Source: Gemmatimonadota bacterium (GTDB lineage Bacteria; Gemmatimonadota; Gemmatimonadetes; Gemmatimonadales; Gemmatimonadaceae). From it: 58,672 nt of DNA. Shown piece after piece: positions 31,263 through 40,490 of the stretch. The stretch's first letter is position 1. Each line of letters begins with the position of its first letter. The position numbers were made by a program, and so were the translations under genes. The stretch lies in the NCBI GenBank assembly GCA_016871855.1, contig VHBQ01000008.1:1-58672 (forward strand). The letters are read 5' to 3'. The notes beneath the pieces were generated by a model, which was given only the letters and a program-made list of their open reading frames with translations, made no database searches and was not told where the DNA came from.

Positions 31263-33062
31263 ATGACCCTTGGTTTGCTCGACTGGCTCATCGTCGCTGC
31301 CTACTTCGGTGTGAGCCTCGGCGTCGGGCTGATGTTCACCAGGCGCGCCTCCCGGTCGACGGACGACTACTTCCTCGCGGGGCGCACCGTGCCGTGGTGG
31401 CTGGCTGGCATCTCAATCGTTGCCACGACCTTCGCCTCGGACACGCCGCTCCTGGTGGCGGGCATCACCGCGCGTGGGGGCATCGCCGGGAACTGGATCT
31501 GGTGGGCGTTCGTGCTGTCGGGGATGCTCACGGTCTTCTTCTTCGCACGCCTCTGGCGCCGGTCGGGCGTGATGACAGACGTCGAGTTCGTCGCCATCCG
31601 CTACTCGGGCCGCGCCGCGCACGTGCTGCGCATCTTCCGCGCCGTCTATCTGGGCCTGCCGATCAACGCGATCATTGGCGGCGCGGTGACGCTCGGGATG
31701 ATCAAGGTGCTCAAGTCCACCACAGGGATCGACGAGTGGACCGCTGTGCTGGTGTGCATCGCGGTTACCGCGCTCTATTCGACGCTCGGCGGCTTCATGG
31801 GCGTGCTGTGGACCGACTTCTTCCAGTTCCTGCTGGCGATGGCCGGGTCGGTGGCGTTGGCGGTCTTCGCGGTCGCTGCCGTCGGCGGGCTTGGTGGTCT
31901 GCAGGAAGGGCTCGTGCGTACGCACGGGGACGCCGCGGTGTCGCTGCTGACGTTCTTCCCGCGCAGCGATGGCGCCTATCTCCCGCTGATCACGCTCGCC
32001 GTCTTCCTCGCGGTTCAATGGTGGGCGGCGGTGTATCCCGGCGCGGAGCCGGGTGGCGGCGGCTACGTGGCCCAGCGGATGTTCGCGTCGAAGGACGAGA
32101 AATCGTCGCTGCTCGCGGTACTCACCTTCAACATCCTGCACTACACGGTGCGGCCGTGGCCGTGGATCCTCACCGCGCTCGCCGCGATGGTCTACTACAG
32201 CGGCAATCCGGCCGTGGCCGCCGACCCGGAACTTGGCTACGTCAAGATGATGACCGACGTCCTGCCCGCGGGCTGGCGCGGTGTGATGCTGGCGGCCTTC
32301 GGCGCCGCGTACATGTCCACCATTGCGACGCAGCTCAACTGGGGCGCGTCGTACCTGGTCAACGACTTGTACCGCCCCTACATCAAGAAGGACGCGACCG
32401 AGCGCCACTACGTCGCGGTGTCCCGCGTGGCGTCGGTGGTGATCATGATCAGCAGCGCGCTGGTGGCGCTCCGCCTCGGGCAGGTGACGCGCGCGCTCGA
32501 CATCCTGCTCTCGATTGGCGCGGGCACCGGGCTCGTGTTCATCCTGCGCTGGTACTGGTGGCGCGTGAGCGCGTGGTCGGAGATCTCGGCGATGATCGCC
32601 GCGACCGTCACGTCGCTCGTGCTTCAGTTGGTTGTCGGCCCCGAGGGATTCGGGCTGTCCGCCACCGGGCGCGATGCCCAGGTCTTCTTCGCCTATTCCA
32701 TCCTGATCACGACGGCCGTGGTGACGGTGGTCTGGCTCGCGGTCACCTTCCTGACGCCGCCGACGGATGACCAGACGCTCGTGGCGTTCTACCGACACAC
32801 CCGTCCCTCCCGGCGCGGATGGGAACGCATCGCGGCGCTGGCTCCCGATGTGAAGATCGAACAGCGCGGCTGGGTCTCGCTGCGCCAGTGGGCCGTCGGC
32901 TGCCTGACCGTGTATCTCTCCCTGTTCGGCATCGGCGAGCTGCTGCTCGGCAGCGGGTGGCGGGGGAGCATCCTCGTCGCGGCCTCGCTCGCTTGCGGCT
33001 GGTGGATCGTCCGTTCCCTGCGTGACGATCACCCGTCGCCTCCCGCGGGTCGCGCCCGATGA
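31263..33062 (+). CDS. Sodium:solute symporter (SSS family) of the corrinoid operon
   Basis: 599 residues, 13-14 predicted helices, paralogous to the symporter at 19486: both share SGRAAPWWLIGIS/AGRTVPWWLAGIS-type starts, WYPGAEPGGG/VYPGAEPGGG, and TIATQLNWGASYLVNDLY. It overlaps the corrinoid-protein gene by four bases (ATGA), so it is translationally coupled to a methyl-transfer pathway. The expected cargo is therefore a methylated osmolyte, amine or methoxy compound rather than a sugar. Only the coupling supports this, not sequence. The 150-base gap upstream shows no recognisable cobalamin or SAM riboswitch. Confidence 0.85.
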   Translation: MTLGLLDWLIVAAYFGVSLGVGLMFTRRASRSTDDYFLAGRTVPWWLAGISIVATTFASDTPLLVAGITARGGIAGNWIWWAFVLSGMLTVFFFARLWRRSGVMTDVEFVAIRYSGRAAHVLRIFRAVYLGLPINAIIGGAVTLGMIKVLKSTTGIDEWTAVLVCIAVTALYSTLGGFMGVLWTDFFQFLLAMAGSVALAVFAVAAVGGLGGLQEGLVRTHGDAAVSLLTFFPRSDGAYLPLITLAVFLAVQWWAAVYPGAEPGGGGYVAQRMFASKDEKSSLLAVLTFNILHYTVRPWPWILTALAAMVYYSGNPAVAADPELGYVKMMTDVLPAGWRGVMLAAFGAAYMSTIATQLNWGASYLVNDLYRPYIKKDATERHYVAVSRVASVVIMISSALVALRLGQVTRALDILLSIGAGTGLVFILRWYWWRVSAWSEISAMIAATVTSLVLQLVVGPEGFGLSATGRDAQVFFAYSILITTAVVTVVWLAVTFLTPPTDDQTLVAFYRHTRPSRRGWERIAALAPDVKIEQRGWVSLRQWAVGCLTVYLSLFGIGELLLGSGWRGSILVAASLACGWWIVRSLRDDHPSPPAGRAR

Positions 33063-33721
33063 CCGATCTCGCCGAACTCGCGCGTCAGCTCATCGACGGC
33101 CACGACACGGAGGTAGCGCGCCTGACGCGCGCGGCGCTCGACGAGGGGCAGTCGCCCGCCGACATCCTCGAACGCGGGCTGATCGCCGGGATGCAGGTAG
33201 TGGGGGAGCGCTTCCGCGACAACATCATCTTCGTTCCGGAAGTGCTCGTGGCGGCGCGCGCGATGAAGGCGGGACTGGCGCACCTCGAGCCGGTGCTCGC
33301 TGCCTGCGGCATCGAACCCGTCGGTACCTTCGTCATCGGCACCGTCAAAGGCGATATCCACGACATCGGCAAGAACCTCGTCGGGATGATGCTCAAGGGC
33401 GCGGGATTCCGCGTCATCGACCTCGGCGTCAACACGCCGCTGGCCAAGTTCCAGGCGGCCATCGCGGAGCACCGCCCCGACATCGTCGGCATGTCGGCCC
33501 TGCTCACGACGACCATGGGGCAAATGAAGGTGAACATTGAGGCGTTCCGCGCCGCCGGCCTGCTTGATGACATGCGCGTGATGGTGGGCGGCGCGGCGGT
33601 GTCGAAGGACTACGCCGAGACGATTGGTGCGCACGGGCATGGCAAGGATGCCCCCTCGTCGGTGGCGCTCGCGCTTGAGCTGCTCGCCGAGGTCAAAGCG
33701 GCGCGCGGGGCGGGCTCATGA
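33059..33721 (+). CDS. Methyl-carrying corrinoid protein
   Basis: 220 residues. A helical cap domain (about 1-85) is followed by a Rossmann-like cobalamin domain with GDIHDIGKNLV, where H101 is the lower cobalt ligand of the D-x-H-x-x-G motif. MSALLTTTMGQMK and VMVGGAAVSKDYA complete the B12 site. This matches the MtaC/MtbC/MttC group of methyltransferase corrinoid proteins and the central MetH module. It carries the methyl group between the two methyltransferases encoded downstream. The Co(I) form is oxygen-sensitive, which explains the activator gene next to it. ATGA overlap with the symporter; 31 bases to the activator. Confidence 0.93.
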   Translation: MTDLAELARQLIDGHDTEVARLTRAALDEGQSPADILERGLIAGMQVVGERFRDNIIFVPEVLVAARAMKAGLAHLEPVLAACGIEPVGTFVIGTVKGDIHDIGKNLVGMMLKGAGFRVIDLGVNTPLAKFQAAIAEHRPDIVGMSALLTTTMGQMKVNIEAFRAAGLLDDMRVMVGGAAVSKDYAETIGAHGHGKDAPSSVALALELLAEVKAARGAGS

Positions 33722-33752
33722 GCGCTCGGGTCGGCGCGCAAAGGGGCAGGTG

Positions 33753-35402
33753 GTGAGCTTCCGCGTTCGATTCCTGCCGGAAGATCGCTCCACGGTCGTC
33801 GACGGCCCGATCGACCTCTTTCTTGCCGCCGCGCAGAGCGACATCTGGACGGAGCAGCCGTGCGGAGCGCGCGCCGCGTGCGGCAAGTGCCGGGTGCAAG
33901 TCACGACCGGCGAAGTTCCGGTCACGGCGGCGGATCAGCGTCTGCTCACGGACGCCGAGCGCGCCGACGGATGGCGTCTCGGCTGCCAGTTGACGCTGGA
34001 CGGCGACGCGACCGTGACGGTCCCGCCGCAGACGCGCAACACCGCCACCAAGTCGTTCGGCGACGACGCGCGTTTCGGCGACGGCATTCAGCGGACGTTT
34101 CGCGCGAGGAAGACGCCGCCGACCACGGCGGAGTACGGCGTCGCGATTGACATCGGCTCCACGTCGCTGGCTGCCGCCTTGGTGGATCTCGCGGATGGCC
34201 GAGTGTGCGGCACGACGTCCCGCGTCAATCCACAGGTGCGCTACGGTGCCGACGTGATCTCGCGCATCCACTTCGCGCAGGAGCACGCGGACGGCAATGC
34301 GCAGCTGCACGACAGCGTCATCGAGGCCATTGGGCAGATGATCGCCGAGCTGACGGCCCAGCGTGGTGTGGCCGCAGAATCCGTCGGCGCGGTGGTGTGC
34401 GCGGGGAACGCAACGATGACGCACGCCGCCGTCGGGGCCGACATCGGGCCGCTGGGGCAGGCGCCGTACGAGGGGAGCTTCACGCATGAAGTGGAGCGGT
34501 CGGCGGCGTCTTTCGGCTGGCCGACGCATCCCGCGGCAGAGGCGCTCTTCCTGCCGATGGTCGGTCACCACATCGGCGGCGACACGGTGGGCGCGATACT
34601 CGCGTGCGGGCTCGACCGCGCTGACGCGTGGCAGCTTCTCATCGACCTCGGGACGAATACGGAGGTGGTGCTCGGGAGCGCACGCGGGCTTTTCGCGACC
34701 TCGACGGCGGCGGGGCCTGCCTTCGAAGGGGCGAACATCGAGCACGGCATGCGCGCGGCGCCCGGCGCGATTGACCGCGTGCGCGTACTGGCCAACGGAC
34801 GGCTCGTTGTGGGCACCGTTGCCAACCAGCCCGCTCGCGGCATCTGCGGCAGTGGACTGATCGACGCGGTGGCCGAGCTACACCGCGCGGGCGTGATCGC
34901 CGCGAGCGGCTACCTCCGCAGCCGCGACGAGTGCGCGGCCGCCGGATTGGCGGAGCGGATCTGCGAACGCGTCATCGAGGCGCCGTGTGGGTCGGGCGCG
35001 CTGCGGCGCGTCCGGTTCGACGGCGACGTGATGCTCTCCGCGCAGGACGTGCGGCAGTTGCAGCTGGTCAAGGGCTCCATCGCAGCGGGGATTGATCTCG
35101 TCCTCAGGCACGCCGGCGTGCGCGCGGGAGAACTCAGCGCCATTCACATCGCCGGGACGTTCGGGAGCTTCGTGCGCAAGGAGTCGGTGCAGGCCATCGG
35201 CCTCGTGCCGGCCATTGATCCTGAGCGGGTGCACTTCGTCGGCAACGCGGCGGGGGTGGGGGCGCGCATGGTGCTGGTGGATGCGCGCTATCGGGAGCGG
35301 GCGCGGCGCATCGCCGAGGAGTGCGCGTATCTCGAGCTGGCGGGACACCCAGACTATCAGGACGCCTTTGTCGCGGCCATCCCCTTGGGGGAGCGCGCGT
35401 GA
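33753..35402 (+). CDS. Corrinoid-protein activator (RamA/RACo-like, [2Fe-2S] plus ASKHA)
   Basis: 549 residues. An N-terminal plant-type ferredoxin domain has C37, C43, C46 and C78 (EQPCGARAACGKC...RLGCQ) for a [2Fe-2S] cluster. A DUF4445-type ASKHA ATPase region follows, with AIDIGSTSLAAALVDL, LLIDLGTNTEVVLG and IHIAGTFGSFVRKE. Such proteins use ATP to reduce accidentally oxidised Co(II) corrinoid protein to Co(I). The GTG at 33753 has AAGGGG six bases upstream; adjacent GTG 33750 is an alternative, and ATG 33718 is in another frame. The stop overlaps the next start by one base. Confidence 0.92.
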   Translation: MSFRVRFLPEDRSTVVDGPIDLFLAAAQSDIWTEQPCGARAACGKCRVQVTTGEVPVTAADQRLLTDAERADGWRLGCQLTLDGDATVTVPPQTRNTATKSFGDDARFGDGIQRTFRARKTPPTTAEYGVAIDIGSTSLAAALVDLADGRVCGTTSRVNPQVRYGADVISRIHFAQEHADGNAQLHDSVIEAIGQMIAELTAQRGVAAESVGAVVCAGNATMTHAAVGADIGPLGQAPYEGSFTHEVERSAASFGWPTHPAAEALFLPMVGHHIGGDTVGAILACGLDRADAWQLLIDLGTNTEVVLGSARGLFATSTAAGPAFEGANIEHGMRAAPGAIDRVRVLANGRLVVGTVANQPARGICGSGLIDAVAELHRAGVIAASGYLRSRDECAAAGLAERICERVIEAPCGSGALRRVRFDGDVMLSAQDVRQLQLVKGSIAAGIDLVLRHAGVRAGELSAIHIAGTFGSFVRKESVQAIGLVPAIDPERVHFVGNAAGVGARMVLVDARYRERARRIAEECAYLELAGHPDYQDAFVAAIPLGERA

Positions 35403-35668
35403 TGGCCAAGCCGCGCGTGCCGCCTGTCCCGACGGTCGATGCCGCGGAGCGCGCCCGCGTCGAGGCCGCGTATGCGCGGCTCGGGACGATGCTCACCGAG
35501 CTCGCAGACGCGCTGGGGGAGCGGATGCACGAGCGGTGTCCGTACCGCGCCCGTGACGAGCGCTGTACGTTTGCGGGCGGGTGTCGCAATCAACGGCGCG
35601 CTGGGCGCGGCGCCGCGCGCACGGTGTCGTGCGGAGGAGATCACCAGCTGCGGAGGACCGGCGATTGA
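35402..35668 (+). CDS. Small Cys-rich protein of the corrinoid operon, unknown function
   Basis: 88 residues. The N-terminal ~45 residues form an amphipathic helix (ERARVEAAYARLGTMLTELA). A compact motif follows: ERCPYRARDERCTFAGGCRNQ, written as C-P-Y-R-x4-R-C-T-F-x-G-G-C-x-N-Q with key Cys separated by eight and five residues, and a later TVSCGGD. Four Cys could bind Zn or an FeS cluster. It is coupled at both ends: ATG overlaps the activator's TGA by one base and its TGA overlaps the next TTG by four. That arrangement and the motif strongly suggest a real functional subunit or metal chaperone. No family name is known to me. Confidence 0.75.
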   Translation: MAKPRVPPVPTVDAAERARVEAAYARLGTMLTELADALGERMHERCPYRARDERCTFAGGCRNQRRAGRGAARTVSCGGDHQLRRTGD

Positions 35669-36861
35669 ACAGCCGCGAGCGAATGGACGTCGCGATGCGA
35701 CTCGGCGTCGCCGACCGCGTGCCGGTGATGTGCCAGCTCGCCCTCGGGCACTACTTCCTGCACGCCGGGCTCGACGCCATCGAGATCTGGCACGACACGC
35801 ATGCCTTCGCCGAGGCGCTCATCCGGCTGCAGCAGCGCTACGGCTTCGATGGCATCCTGATCAACCTTCCCGGACGCGACCCCGAGTGGCGGCGGGCCAT
35901 CTCGCGCATGGAGCGTCAGGGCGATGAGCGCATCGTCACGTGGAAGAACGGGTGGCACACCACCGCGCCCGACGACGACAACCCGCACGTCTATCAGGCC
36001 GACGGCACGCGCTACTTCCCAAGCTTCGACGAGGTGGAGCCCGACGCGCTCTTCTACGTGGAACCGCACGACCTGTCGAGCATCACGCATCCGTTCTCGT
36101 GGGGGTTCGACGGCGTGCGCGCAGAGCCCGGACGGGACTTCTTCCCGCCGTGGCACTACGACACCATCCGCGAAGTGGTGCGGCGCGTCGGCGCCGACGT
36201 GTCGGTGCACGGCGAGATCTTCTCGCCGTTCACGCAGTTCATGGAGCTGCTCGACTACACGAATGGGCTGATGGCGCTGATGGATGACCCGGGGAAGGTG
36301 CGAGCCTGCCTCGACCGGCTGGCCGACGGCGCCGTCGCACTCGGGCGCGGGCAGGCGCGCGCCGGGGCACATGCGATCCTTATCTCGTCGGCTTTCGCCG
36401 GCGCCGGGCTCATTTCACGCGAGCACTATTCGGAGTTCGTGCTGCCGTATGAGCGCAAGGTGATTGACGGCATCCAGGCCGAGTGCGACGTGCCCATCTA
36501 TACCCACACGTGCGGGGCCATCGGCGACCGGCTCGACTTGATGGAGGCGACGCACACCAACGGCATCGACACGCTCGATCCGCCGCCGCTCGGGACGGTT
36601 GAGTTGGCCGATGCCGTGCGGCAGACGAAGGGGAAGATGTTCATCAAGGGGAACCTCGATCCGGTGAACACCGTGCTCTTCGGCACGCCGGATGACGTGC
36701 GGGCTGCGGCGCGCGGACGGCTGGAGCTGGCCGCCCCCGGCGGCGGCTACATCCTGAGCACGGCCTGCTCGGTGGCCCCCGCCGCGCCGCCAGAGAACAT
36801 CATGGTCCTGCGCGAGGCGGTGGAGATGTGGGGCACGTATCCCGAGGGCCAACGGACGTGA
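35665..36861 (+). CDS. UroD-family cobalamin-dependent methyltransferase (MtaA/MtbA-like)
   Basis: 398 residues. The uroporphyrinogen-decarboxylase fold is evident, but it matches methyltransferase members: Y-T-H-T-C-G gives H281 and C283, and STACSVAPAAPPEN gives C368, the His-x-Cys...Cys zinc site used to bind a thiol or polarise a methyl donor. The Arg residues of true haem-pathway decarboxylases are not apparent. It may take a methyl group from an imported donor to the corrinoid protein, or the reverse. TTG 35665 is chosen because GGAGG (35652-35656) lies eight bases upstream and TTGA overlaps the preceding stop; ATG 35683 is the alternative. Confidence 0.88.
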   Translation: MNSRERMDVAMRLGVADRVPVMCQLALGHYFLHAGLDAIEIWHDTHAFAEALIRLQQRYGFDGILINLPGRDPEWRRAISRMERQGDERIVTWKNGWHTTAPDDDNPHVYQADGTRYFPSFDEVEPDALFYVEPHDLSSITHPFSWGFDGVRAEPGRDFFPPWHYDTIREVVRRVGADVSVHGEIFSPFTQFMELLDYTNGLMALMDDPGKVRACLDRLADGAVALGRGQARAGAHAILISSAFAGAGLISREHYSEFVLPYERKVIDGIQAECDVPIYTHTCGAIGDRLDLMEATHTNGIDTLDPPPLGTVELADAVRQTKGKMFIKGNLDPVNTVLFGTPDDVRAAARGRLELAAPGGGYILSTACSVAPAAPPENIMVLREAVEMWGTYPEGQRT

Positions 36862-36894
36862 GGCGCGCCACGCGAATCGGGCGCGGAGGCGCCG

Positions 36895-37776
36895 ATGCGT
36901 GAGCCGCTGCTCGACGCGCTGCGTCGCGGCGCGACGTTCGTCGGCGACGGCGGCATGGGGACGGAGCTGCAGCGCGCTGGCCTCGAGCCCGGGGGCTGCG
37001 GCGACGAATGGAACCTGTCGCATCCTGTATCCGTGCAGGAGATCCAGCGTCGGTACGTCGAGGCCGGAGCGCAGATCATCCTCGCGAATACGTTCGGCAC
37101 CAACCGCTTCGTCCTGTCGCGCTACGACCTCGAGAACCGCGTCGCCGATATCGCGCGCGCGGCGGCGATCAACGCGCGCGCCGCCGCCGGTACGCGTGCC
37201 TACGTCCTTGGCGACATCGGTCCGTGCGGCGGCTTCCTGGAACCGCTCGGCGAGATCTCGGCGAATGAACTCGAGGAGACCTGGCGCTCGGCGATTGCGG
37301 CCATGCTCGCCGAGGGCGTGGATGGGATCATCTTCGAAACGATGACCGCGCTGGACGAGATCACGCTGGGCATTCGCGTGGCGCGAGCGCTCGGCGCGCC
37401 GATGATCGTGGCCTCGATGTCGTACGATCCGGTGCGGGGCGGGGGATTCCGCACGATGATGGGCGTCGCACCGTCCGACGGGGCGCGCGCGTGCGTCGAG
37501 GCGGGCGCGCATGTGGTGGGAGCCAACTGCGGGCGTGCCGAGCCGGAGGACTTCGCCGCGATCGCCACCGAAATGCGCGCGGCCACGGACGCGCCGTTGA
37601 TCCTCCAGCCGAATGCCGGCCAGCCCGAGCTGCGCGGCGACGCGATCGTCTATCCGCGCGATCCGGCCTCGCTCGCGCCGGCGCTGGTGGAGCTCTCACG
37701 CCACGCGGCGATCGTTGGCGGGTGCTGCGGGACGACGCCCGGACATATCGCGGCGTTCGTGCATCAGCGGGGCTAG
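36895..37776 (+). CDS. Homocysteine S-methyltransferase
   Basis: 293 residues of the betaine-homocysteine methyltransferase/MetH N-terminal fold. GDGGMGTELQRAG starts the barrel, NTFGTNRF and GDIGPCGG bind homocysteine, and the zinc ligands are C212 (GANCG), C277 and C278 (GGCCGTTP). It has the MetH homocysteine module alone, without folate, cobalamin or activation domains, which are instead encoded separately by the corrinoid and activator genes upstream. It likely transfers the corrinoid-bound methyl group to homocysteine to make methionine. GGAGG five bases before ATG. Last gene of the operon. Confidence 0.9.
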   Translation: MREPLLDALRRGATFVGDGGMGTELQRAGLEPGGCGDEWNLSHPVSVQEIQRRYVEAGAQIILANTFGTNRFVLSRYDLENRVADIARAAAINARAAAGTRAYVLGDIGPCGGFLEPLGEISANELEETWRSAIAAMLAEGVDGIIFETMTALDEITLGIRVARALGAPMIVASMSYDPVRGGGFRTMMGVAPSDGARACVEAGAHVVGANCGRAEPEDFAAIATEMRAATDAPLILQPNAGQPELRGDAIVYPRDPASLAPALVELSRHAAIVGGCCGTTPGHIAAFVHQRG

Positions 37777-37782
37777 CCCCGC
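37767..37782 (+). terminator. Palindrome over the stop of the homocysteine methyltransferase gene
   Basis: GCGGGGCTAGCCCCGC is a perfect 16-base palindrome containing the TAG stop. It could act as the end of the corrinoid operon, although no T-run follows. Confidence 0.4.
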
Positions 37783-37837
37783 CGGCCGCGCAGAGGTCTC
37801 GCCTGGCCCCCCTTCAGCGGGGTACCCGTTCCGGGCG

Positions 37838-37843
37838 TATAAT
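37838..37843 (+). promoter_or_regulatory. Candidate -10 box TATAAT
   Basis: A perfect TATAAT in a GC-rich spacer, 44 bases before the metalloprotease ATG. The TTCAGC at 37813 is a poor -35 with 19-base spacing. Confidence 0.45.
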
Positions 37844-37886
37844 TCCGTCCCCTTGCGTCTCTCAGCTGCCAACCACAGGTCACCAG

Positions 37887-40490
37887 ATGAAAGCCTCTAC
37901 TACCCTGATGTTGCTGGCGGTCGCCGTGACGGCGGCTTGCGGTAAGACCCCCCCAGCCACGACGCCAGCTCCGCAGGCTACGCCGCCGGCCGCCGGACCC
38001 CGTCCTGCTGCCGCGCCAACGCCAACGCCAGCGGCGGCGCCGCGGGCCGCGGCCGCCCAGGATACCACCGCACGCCCGGCCGGTGCCGCTCCAGGCGCCC
38101 CCGTTGCGCCCGGCGCCGAGGCACAGCCGCGGCCGTACAACCGGGTGATCACGGCGGAAGCGAAGAGTCGCGCCGGGATGTTCAAGACGCATCAGGTGGG
38201 CAGCCGCCACTACTTCGAGATTCCGCGGGCGGCGATGAACAAGGAGATGATCATCGTCACGCGCGGCGTCCGGGTTCCCGCGGGCAGTCTCGCCGGGCAA
38301 CAGATCGGCCAGACGCAGGTCGTGCGCTGGGAGCGCCGGGACAACCGCATCTTCCTCCGCCGCATCTCGTACGCCACCGTCGCCGATTCGACGACGCCGA
38401 TCTACCGCGCCGTTCGCAATTCGAACGAAGACGTCATCCTTGGCGCCTTCAACGTGGAAGCCTGGAGTGCGGACAGCGCCGCGGTGATCGAGGTCGGCCG
38501 GTTCTACACGGCCCCGCCCACCGAGATCGGGCCGGGGTCGGCGTTCCGGACGCCGCCCGACGCGAACCGCTCGTACGTGGACCGCGTGCTGTCGTTCCCG
38601 AAAAACGTTGAAGTCGAGGCCACACTCACCTATGCCGCGCCGCCAGCCGGGACCCCGGCGCCCGCCACCGGGTTTGGCACGGCGCCAACCGGGACGGCCA
38701 CCATCACGCTGCGGTGGAGCATGTTGGCGCTTCCAGAGAAGCCGATGATGCCGCGCCTGTTCGACAAGCGCGTCGGCTTCTTCTCGCTCAGTCAGGTGGA
38801 CTACGGTCGTCCGGAGCAGAGGGCCGAGACGCGGAACTACATCGTGCGGTGGCGGCTGGAGAAGAAGGACCCCAATGCTGCCAAGTCGGAGCCGGTGAAG
38901 CCGATCACGTACTACGTGGATCCGGCGACGCCGGAGTGGCTCAAGCCGTGGGTGAAGAAGGGGATCGAGGACTGGCAGCCGGCGTTCGAGGAGGCGGGCT
39001 TCATTCGCGGCATCGTAGCCGCGGACGCGCCCACCAAGGAGCAGGACCCCGACTGGTCGCCGGAGGATGCGCGGTACTCGGTGGTGCGTTGGATGGCGTC
39101 CACCATCGAGAACGCCGTCGGACCGAACGTCAATGATCCACGCAGCGGTGAGATCCTCGAGTCCGACATCTACATGTTCCACAACATCATGAACCTCCAG
39201 CGGACCTGGTACTTCACGCAGGTGGGGCACCTGGATCCGCGCGCGCGTCAGTGGCCCATGCCCGACTCGCTCATGGGTGAGTTGGTGCGGTTCGTGGTCG
39301 CGCACGAGGTTGGGCACACGCTCGGATATCAGCACGACCAGAAGGGAAGCGCGCTGTACCCCACCGACTCGGTGCGCAGCCGCACGTGGGTCGCCAAGAT
39401 GGGACACAGCCCGTCCATCATGGACTACTCGCGCTTCAACTACGTGGCCCAGCCGGAGGACGGCATCGCGCTCAAGGACCTGATTCCGCGCATCGGGCCG
39501 TGGGACAAGTACATCACCCGATGGGGCTACACGCCGATTCCGGCCGCGAAGACGCCGGACGCGGAGTGGGCGACGCTCGACCAGTGGTCCCGCGAACAGG
39601 AGCGTGTGCCGTGGTACCGGTTCGACGTGCGGGACGCGGGCAGCGGCGATCCCGGCGCGCACTCGGAAGCCGTCGGCGACGCGGACCCAGTCAAGGCAAC
39701 CGGCTGGGGGATCAGAAGCATCAAGCAGATCGTCCCACTCCTCGTGCCCTCGACCGTGCAGCCGGGCGCGGACTTCGACGACCTCGTGATGATGTACGAC
39801 CGGCTGGTCGGCCAGTGGTCCACCGAGCTGCGGCACGTCGCCTGGGTGGTTGGTGGCGTGGAAGCGCAGGAGAAGTACGGCGGACAGGACGGCGTCCGGT
39901 TCAAGCCGCTGCCGAAGTCGCGTCAGAAGGAGGCAGTGCGCTTCCTCATCGACAACGCGTTTGCCACGCCCACGTGGCTGACGCCGGAAGAGATTCTTCG
40001 GCGGATCGAAGTCGAAGGCGCCATTCGGCGCATCGTGTCGGCGCAATCGGGCGTGCTGAGCACGCTGATGAGCGATCGCCGGCTCGAACGGCTCATCGAG
40101 CACGAGGCCTTGGCCAAGAACCGAGGTGACGCGTACAGCCTGACGGAGATGGCGGCCGATGTGCGGCGGGGGATCTGGTCGGAGTTGGGCGCGGGAACCG
40201 TTCAGGTGAACGCGTATCGGCGGGAGCTCCAGCGCGCGTTCCTCAGCGCGATGGACGCCAAGATCAACCCGACGCCCGCGCAGCTTCCTGCCGGCCTGCC
40301 CGCGGGCTTCGCGGCGCAGTTCGGTCCGGCGCGCGCGACCAGCGACATCCGCGCGGTGTTGCGTGCCGAGGTGAAGGCGCTCGACGCTGACCTCGCCGCG
40401 GCCGCGGGACGGGCCGGTGACGCCGTCACGCGCGCGCACATTGCCGACGCCCGGGTGCAGATCGACCGGATTCTCGATCCGCGAAAGTAG
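37887..40490 (+). CDS. DUF5117-type zinc metalloprotease lipoprotein
   Basis: 867 residues. A lipoprotein signal (LMLLAVAVTAACGK) leads to a Pro/Ala-rich linker (about 20-80), then a beta-rich domain and a metzincin catalytic domain: VVAHEVGHTLGYQHD gives the HExxHxxGxxH zinc site and SIMDYSRFNY the Met-turn. The architecture matches DUF5117/DUF4953 zinc-dependent metalloproteases frequent in Gemmatimonadota and Bacteroidota, likely anchored in the outer membrane and degrading extracellular protein. The ATG at 37887 fits the signal peptide. It is a single-gene unit with a TATAAT box upstream. Confidence 0.88.
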   Translation: MKASTTLMLLAVAVTAACGKTPPATTPAPQATPPAAGPRPAAAPTPTPAAAPRAAAAQDTTARPAGAAPGAPVAPGAEAQPRPYNRVITAEAKSRAGMFKTHQVGSRHYFEIPRAAMNKEMIIVTRGVRVPAGSLAGQQIGQTQVVRWERRDNRIFLRRISYATVADSTTPIYRAVRNSNEDVILGAFNVEAWSADSAAVIEVGRFYTAPPTEIGPGSAFRTPPDANRSYVDRVLSFPKNVEVEATLTYAAPPAGTPAPATGFGTAPTGTATITLRWSMLALPEKPMMPRLFDKRVGFFSLSQVDYGRPEQRAETRNYIVRWRLEKKDPNAAKSEPVKPITYYVDPATPEWLKPWVKKGIEDWQPAFEEAGFIRGIVAADAPTKEQDPDWSPEDARYSVVRWMASTIENAVGPNVNDPRSGEILESDIYMFHNIMNLQRTWYFTQVGHLDPRARQWPMPDSLMGELVRFVVAHEVGHTLGYQHDQKGSALYPTDSVRSRTWVAKMGHSPSIMDYSRFNYVAQPEDGIALKDLIPRIGPWDKYITRWGYTPIPAAKTPDAEWATLDQWSREQERVPWYRFDVRDAGSGDPGAHSEAVGDADPVKATGWGIRSIKQIVPLLVPSTVQPGADFDDLVMMYDRLVGQWSTELRHVAWVVGGVEAQEKYGGQDGVRFKPLPKSRQKEAVRFLIDNAFATPTWLTPEEILRRIEVEGAIRRIVSAQSGVLSTLMSDRRLERLIEHEALAKNRGDAYSLTEMAADVRRGIWSELGAGTVQVNAYRRELQRAFLSAMDAKINPTPAQLPAGLPAGFAAQFGPARATSDIRAVLRAEVKALDADLAAAAGRAGDAVTRAHIADARVQIDRILDPRK

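Follow-up and report, generated by a model that had tools for sequence, protein, structure and literature searches.

A B12-dependent methionine synthase need not be a single protein. Phaeobacter inhibens is described as having a split enzyme that works with a RamA-like activator (PMC5764234), and MtgBCDE of Ruegeria pomeroyi has been presented as MetH in pieces, with a demethylase that shares the corrinoid protein (PMC12478193). The core methionine synthases MesA-D are MetE-type and folate-independent, and three of the four families probably use methyl-corrinoid proteins, according to the account in PMC7857596. On the donor side, S-methyltransferases of the UroD superfamily are reported to bind zinc through a His-Cys-Cys set of ligands, whereas O-methyltransferases replace one or both of the cysteines (Kountz and Balskus, PMC10418091). 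Here, a six-gene operon is described from a member of the Gemmatimonadaceae (GenBank assembly GCA_016871855.1, contig VHBQ01000008.1), whose phylum has been little studied. The window, meaning the whole stretch of 58,672 nucleotides that was analysed, is contig C8 of this 2.99 Mb draft, which is 85.6% complete. The operon probably encodes an accessory pathway in which corrinoid-bound methyl groups are passed to homocysteine without folate.

The genes run head to tail on the forward strand (31263-37776) and either overlap or are spaced by no more than 33 nt. A first-pass annotation of this DNA had claimed such a near-touching operon, and both its coordinates and its gene order proved correct, with five of the six products matching Pfam families over cut-off. 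The first gene (31263..33062) encodes SSS, a sodium:solute symporter (SSS/SSF) of 599 aa that matches PF00474 (SSF) with 140.3 bits. It overlaps via an ATGA the gene for CORR (33059..33721), a corrinoid (B12-binding) methyl carrier of 220 aa with PF02310 (B12-binding) and PF02607 (B12-binding_2) over cut-off. ACT (33750..35402), a RACo/RamA-type ATP-dependent corrinoid activator with an N-terminal [2Fe-2S] domain, starts with the GTG at 33750, 28 nt past the end of CORR, and is covered over cut-off by PF00111 (Fer2), PF17651 (Raco_middle) and PF14574 (RACo_C_ter). Its stop overlaps by one base the gene for CYS (35402..35668), a small protein of 88 aa with four conserved cysteines. UROD (35665..36861), a UroD-superfamily methyltransferase of 398 aa with Pfam URO-D over cut-off, starts with a TTG at 35665 that overlaps the CYS stop; the relative L025 has an ATG start. 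Finally, HMT (36895..37776), a homocysteine S-methyltransferase of 293 aa, begins 33 nt after UROD and matches PF02574 (S-methyl_trans) with 189.3 bits, with zinc ligands at C212, C277 and C278. These parts, their motifs and linkage, and the folate partners missing from the organism's own assembly, are read directly from the sequence.

How might the parts work together? SSS would import a soluble methylated compound, and UROD, as a zinc enzyme, would transfer the donor methyl to the cob(I) form of CORR. The MetH-like HMT would then remove the methyl from CORR to form methionine, while ACT would re-reduce cob(II) using ATP and its [2Fe-2S] cluster. Every reaction in this scheme and its direction, like the role of CYS and the nature of the donor, is something we infer.

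The linkage recurs beyond the window. UROD was found (E <= 1e-30) in 14 of 395 genomes sampled across the phylum, namely in seven of the 10 sampled in its own genus, including a remnant in G031, and in seven from other families. The 13 loci with an intact UROD were compared, counting neighbours within about 10 kb. The complete six-gene order is present in six of them (the window, L025, L026, L032, L033 and L037), all from one genus, and partial gene sets are found in other families of the phylum. ACT and SSS each lie near UROD in 10 of the 13 loci (the SSS of L031 is shortened by a run of N), CORR and HMT each in nine, and CYS in eight. L035 and L038 have none of these five genes near UROD, although contig ends limit both: the L035 UROD is close to a contig end and the L038 contig is only 3,940 bases long. 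The recurring order and linkage argue that the arrangement is not due to chance. In four of the 10 genus genomes UROD is undetected or the operon is broken, and two of these four are less than 90% complete. All of the genus genomes are drafts (the other six with the operon or its remnant are 91-99% complete), so such absences are only as reliable as assembly completeness. The G031 remnant (L036:8812-10611, with the same place seen in L064) keeps the symporter start, the UROD end and HMT, and may be an operon in decay or an artefact of assembly.

The zinc site of UROD provides a clue to the donor. H281, C283 and C368 are invariant in all 13 loci, and in 4ay7, a methylcobalamin:CoM methyltransferase of Methanosarcina, the residues aligned with them are its H-x-C and C. 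Because UROD has a His-Cys-Cys site, the rule set out in PMC10418091 points to a methyl-sulfur or methyl-selenium compound, and an S-methyl (or Se-methyl) donor is the most likely one. The steady linkage with the symporter suggests that this donor is soluble and imported. UROD falls well short of the MtaA/CmuA family (TIGR01463, 111.4 bits against a cut-off of 235.4) and further still of uroporphyrinogen decarboxylase HemE (TIGR01464, 58.3 bits against 302.95). Identification as HemE was rejected on this failed cut-off, and four aligned HemE rows have other residues at the zinc-ligand places.

The symporter is the probable importer of the methyl donor. Its best match in the PDB is a sodium/glucose cotransporter (2xq2, 128.1 bits) and it scores 156.5 bits with TIGR00813, under the cut-off of 184. 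CORR has the motif D99-x-H101-x-x-G104 and matches 1y80 with 199.6 bits; it is some way from the glycine betaine corrinoid protein MtgC (NF047996, 191.5 bits against a cut-off of 370). ACT aligns with RACo (3zyy, 268.9 bits) across the ASKHA domains and at the [2Fe-2S] cysteines C38, C44, C47 and C79, and having the Fer2, RACo middle and ASKHA C-terminal parts all over cut-off places it among the RACo/RACE activators. CYS is the odd one out, as it reaches the cut-off of no Pfam family and lacks any match in NCBIfam. A CYS profile search produced strong matches in eight of the 395 genomes, each directly upstream of UROD (four weak matches, with E values of 0.002-0.01, were judged to be chance and excluded), and C46, C55, C61 and C77 are invariant in all eight. 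The AF2 model has a mean pLDDT of 72.3, although the cysteine half lies in ten-residue blocks of 42-63, which is low confidence. CYS probably helps with activation or electron delivery.

The identity of HMT bears on the acceptor. Its closest structural relative among those compared is Thermotoga maritima MetH (1q7m, 155.3 bits), as opposed to BHMT (1lt7, 61.6 bits) or the homocysteine S-methyltransferase 5dml (36.1 bits). It does not reach the curated cut-offs for the betaine-homocysteine model PRK07534 (178.2 bits against 338) or the homocysteine S-methyltransferase model PRK09485 (76.4 bits against 215). With the MetH module so much closer, assignment as a BHMT or an S-methylmethionine enzyme was rejected. 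In a tree of 22 HMT domains, the HMTs of UROD-type corrinoid operons, those of the MttB-type corrinoid operons of G199 and G109 and a fragment from G168 form one group, with modest support (80/90), that is separate from MetH, HMT-MTHFR fusions and other HMTs. Together with the linkage, this kinship suggests that donor modules of two kinds pass their methyl groups to one common type of homocysteine module. In G199 and G109, MttB, a corrinoid protein and HMT are found together (L050:8345-12049 and L052:6701-11661). The G199 operon also has a stand-alone gene resembling the MetH activation domain (PF02965) with a Cys-rich tail, whereas G109 has an activator instead.

The other clue to the acceptor is what is missing. 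The first-pass annotation had stated that the operon lacks a folate methyltransferase, and this holds for the operon and extends to stand-alone genes in the rest of the organism's 85.6% complete assembly, where the sole PF00809 match lies inside MetH. It had also called for a search for MttB and metE, and neither MttB nor PF01717 (Mes/MetE) has any match in that assembly, the operon proteins included. MttB is likewise absent from the other six genus genomes with UROD; it is present in six of the 14 UROD genomes, none of them in the genus. Homocysteine is therefore the likely acceptor, as had been proposed, by inference from the missing MttB and stand-alone folate methyltransferase and from the kinship of HMT. 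Each of the other six genus genomes has one PF00809 match, adjoining the MetH homocysteine match. With PF00809 found only beside MetH, no FolP (dihydropteroate synthase) was found in the seven genus genomes; five of the seven other UROD genomes have a strong match of the second type outside MetH. The gap may reflect folate auxotrophy or an unknown enzyme. In G284 a pterin-binding gene outside MetH (L059:8694-9854) is distinct from the strong FolP-like match.

Several observations do not fit comfortably with a pathway from UROD through CORR to homocysteine. HMT is not near UROD in four of the 13 loci (L030, L031, L035 and L038), and the HMTs of UROD operons alone do not form a single branch. 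G184 has UROD, CORR, ACT and SSS together, yet it has no HMT of the corrinoid-operon group; its HMTs are one open frame of HMT-MTHFR size and two genes of another clade. UROD of G158 is far from that genome's sole corrinoid-protein match, which adjoins MttB and a gene for a DUF1638 protein. MttB is also the neighbour of the closest corrinoid match in each of three other genomes, G109, G168 and G199. UROD in these four genomes would therefore have to share the corrinoid protein of MttB. In L035, UROD and an MttB fragment are separated by only one gene, an arrangement in which UROD could work at the acceptor end instead. Taken together, the cases of G158, G109, G168, G199, G184 and L035 mean that UROD may act at that end in part of the lineages. 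The extra pterin-binding gene of G284 means that folate could serve there. Finally, every curated model that matches UROD scores it under cut-off, and the rule that links a His-Cys-Cys site to the donor rests on one preprint (PMC10418091).

What else could the operon do? One idea is O-demethylation, with a methoxyaromatic or methanol-like donor feeding homocysteine through an aerobic relative of the UroD-type O-demethylases of anaerobes. Phenolic O-demethylases of the UroD superfamily are known, and corrinoid methyltransferases, corrinoid proteins and RACE proteins are described as often colocalised (PMC10418091). However, the same source has O-type enzymes losing one or both cysteine ligands while UROD keeps all three ligands at every intact locus, and this idea is doubtful. 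A second idea, which seems improbable to much the same degree, is that HMT is a betaine- or S-methylmethionine-type enzyme that merely shares the operon while the corrinoid methyl goes elsewhere. The match to the betaine-homocysteine model, though under its cut-off, and the four loci with no HMT beside UROD are in its favour, but the similarity of HMT to the MetH module far exceeds that to BHMT or 5dml, and it clusters with the HMTs of MttB-type corrinoid operons. Far less credible is the view, in line with the original suggestion of a methionine synthase, that the operon is the organism's main one. All of the catalytic parts for transfer from methyl-corrinoid to homocysteine are certainly present. 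Nevertheless, the organism's own genome has three PF02574 matches: a MetH frame of 1225 aa, an HMT-MTHFR fusion and the operon HMT. This MetH (contig C42) is complete, with homocysteine, pterin, B12 and activation domains, so the check for metH that had been proposed went against the claim. Moreover, all 14 UROD genomes have MetH (called where PF02574 and PF00809 occur in one long frame) or MetE matches, with MetH in 12 (cut by a contig end in G124) and MetE in the other two, G158 and G184, of which the G184 match spans 247 of the 324 positions within a single frame. This led to the suggestion being dropped, and the undetected or broken operons in the genus speak against it as well.

The remaining alternative keeps homocysteine but gives it a different purpose. 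What if UROD demethylates an imported methyl-selenium compound in order to free selenium for selenophosphate and selenocysteine, with homocysteine as the methyl sink? The zinc site would fit such a donor. Twelve of the 14 UROD genomes have a selD match over cut-off, which in 11 of the 12 contains an in-frame TGA, and a tRNA-Sec gene adjoins selD in the organism's own genome (L079:9979-10075, with selD at G000:C36:16204-17127) and in G065. Every genome and all 14 controls also have selD profile matches under cut-off, which were left out of the count. In addition, PMC10418091 reports that ClMlp2, a UroD protein of type 1 mlp gene clusters (MGCs), methylates selenide in vitro, and it puts the share of MGC species that make selenocysteine at 87%. 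On the other hand, no selenium gene lies in the operon, and selD is not over cut-off in G031, where the operon is broken, or in G175. The operon of G175 is intact, which means that the pattern of selD with UROD is not a clean one. One survey puts selD in 33.7% of sequenced bacteria (PMC5029168), although this base is bacteria at large, not the phylum, and the UROD relatives are not independent of each other. A selenium link is thus a lead only, and selenium salvage as the purpose of the operon is an unlikely explanation. There is also the matter of oxygen. All 14 UROD genomes have a COX1 (PF00115) match over cut-off, which points to oxygen respiration. It is conceivable, at similarly long odds, that in a bacterium with oxygen-respiration genes a corrinoid relay dedicated to the task strips imported organoselenium (or organosulfur) compounds of their methyl groups and parks these on homocysteine. 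UROD would represent a new subfamily, partnered by a small Cys protein of its own. If so, one operon would supply both selenium for selenoproteins and methionine.

The surroundings of the operon add some further observations. The frame that follows it on the same strand (37491-40490) encodes a DUF5117/DUF4953 metzincin-like protein with no evident link to methyl transfer. The neighbour is different at L025 (4018-6828, partly also in L064), where what look by eye like genes for a multihaem cytochrome, a 4Fe-4S subunit and an NrfD-type membrane subunit follow the operon on the same strand. An Rfam scan had zero matches in the window and in seven loci, leaving riboswitch control unsupported, and no tRNA gene was found in the window. 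A plasmid search with UROD returned nine records, all below 60% identity and three annotated as hemE. The best of them, plasmid pTs417 of Thiodictyon syntrophicum (L078:6332-9665), has a trio of cobalamin protein, UroD and ASKHA genes with no adjoining acceptor gene.

If an accessory transfer of methyl groups to homocysteine is the right reading, corrinoid demethylation of the type known from anaerobes would also operate, with homocysteine receiving the methyl, in Gemmatimonadota whose genomes have oxidase genes. Methylated compounds from the environment would thereby gain a direct way into methionine. A modular rule would also emerge: UroD and MttB would be interchangeable donor modules, set against a constant corrinoid protein and homocysteine module. 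It also becomes a testable question what methylated compounds of sulfur or selenium are taken up by these bacteria, which are known here only from metagenome assemblies.

How different is this operon from the systems already described? It is like the MtaA/MtbA methylcobamide:CoM methyltransferases in the UROD fold and the aligned zinc ligands, but UROD scores less than half of the TIGR01463 cut-off, CoM is not expected, and the direction proposed is the opposite one. Methionine would be formed without folate, as by MesA-D, except that homocysteine is handled by a MetH-type enzyme (PF02574) and that the operon includes a donor enzyme of its own. Type 1 MGCs come closer, as they also combine a UroD protein that has a His-Cys-Cys zinc site with a corrinoid protein, a RACE activator and no folate methyltransferase. 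However, that account describes them only from anaerobes and with at least two Mlps, Mlp2 and Mlp3 (PMC10418091), whereas this operon has one UroD gene, an explicit MetH-type HMT as acceptor and a place in COX1-bearing genomes. A literature search, mostly at the level of search summaries, found no operon that combines UroD, corrinoid, activator and homocysteine methyltransferase genes.

The closest likeness is to the split synthases of Phaeobacter and Ruegeria, which also have separate homocysteine, corrinoid and RamA-like activator proteins (PMC5764234, PMC12478193). The operon has its own stand-alone homocysteine module, stand-alone corrinoid protein and RamA-like (DUF4445/RACo) activator. 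In those two systems the pterin-binding subunit MtgD is reported as essential and the donor enzyme is an MttB-family protein. In contrast, UROD is the sole donor candidate here, and the methyl-folate:corrinoid subunit has no stand-alone counterpart in the organism's own assembly, where pterin binding was found only within MetH. No DUF1638 protein is among the six operon proteins (the rest of the genome was not searched for it). The operon further differs in having the symporter and CYS within it and a full MetH elsewhere in the genome. The first-pass annotation had described a MetH taken apart, with activation by ATP. The parts for this are indeed present, although it is not a novelty, as Phaeobacter inhibens already has a RamA-like version. 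The split, RamA-activated methionine synthase is thus already published, and what is new is the UroD donor side that replaces the folate subunit.

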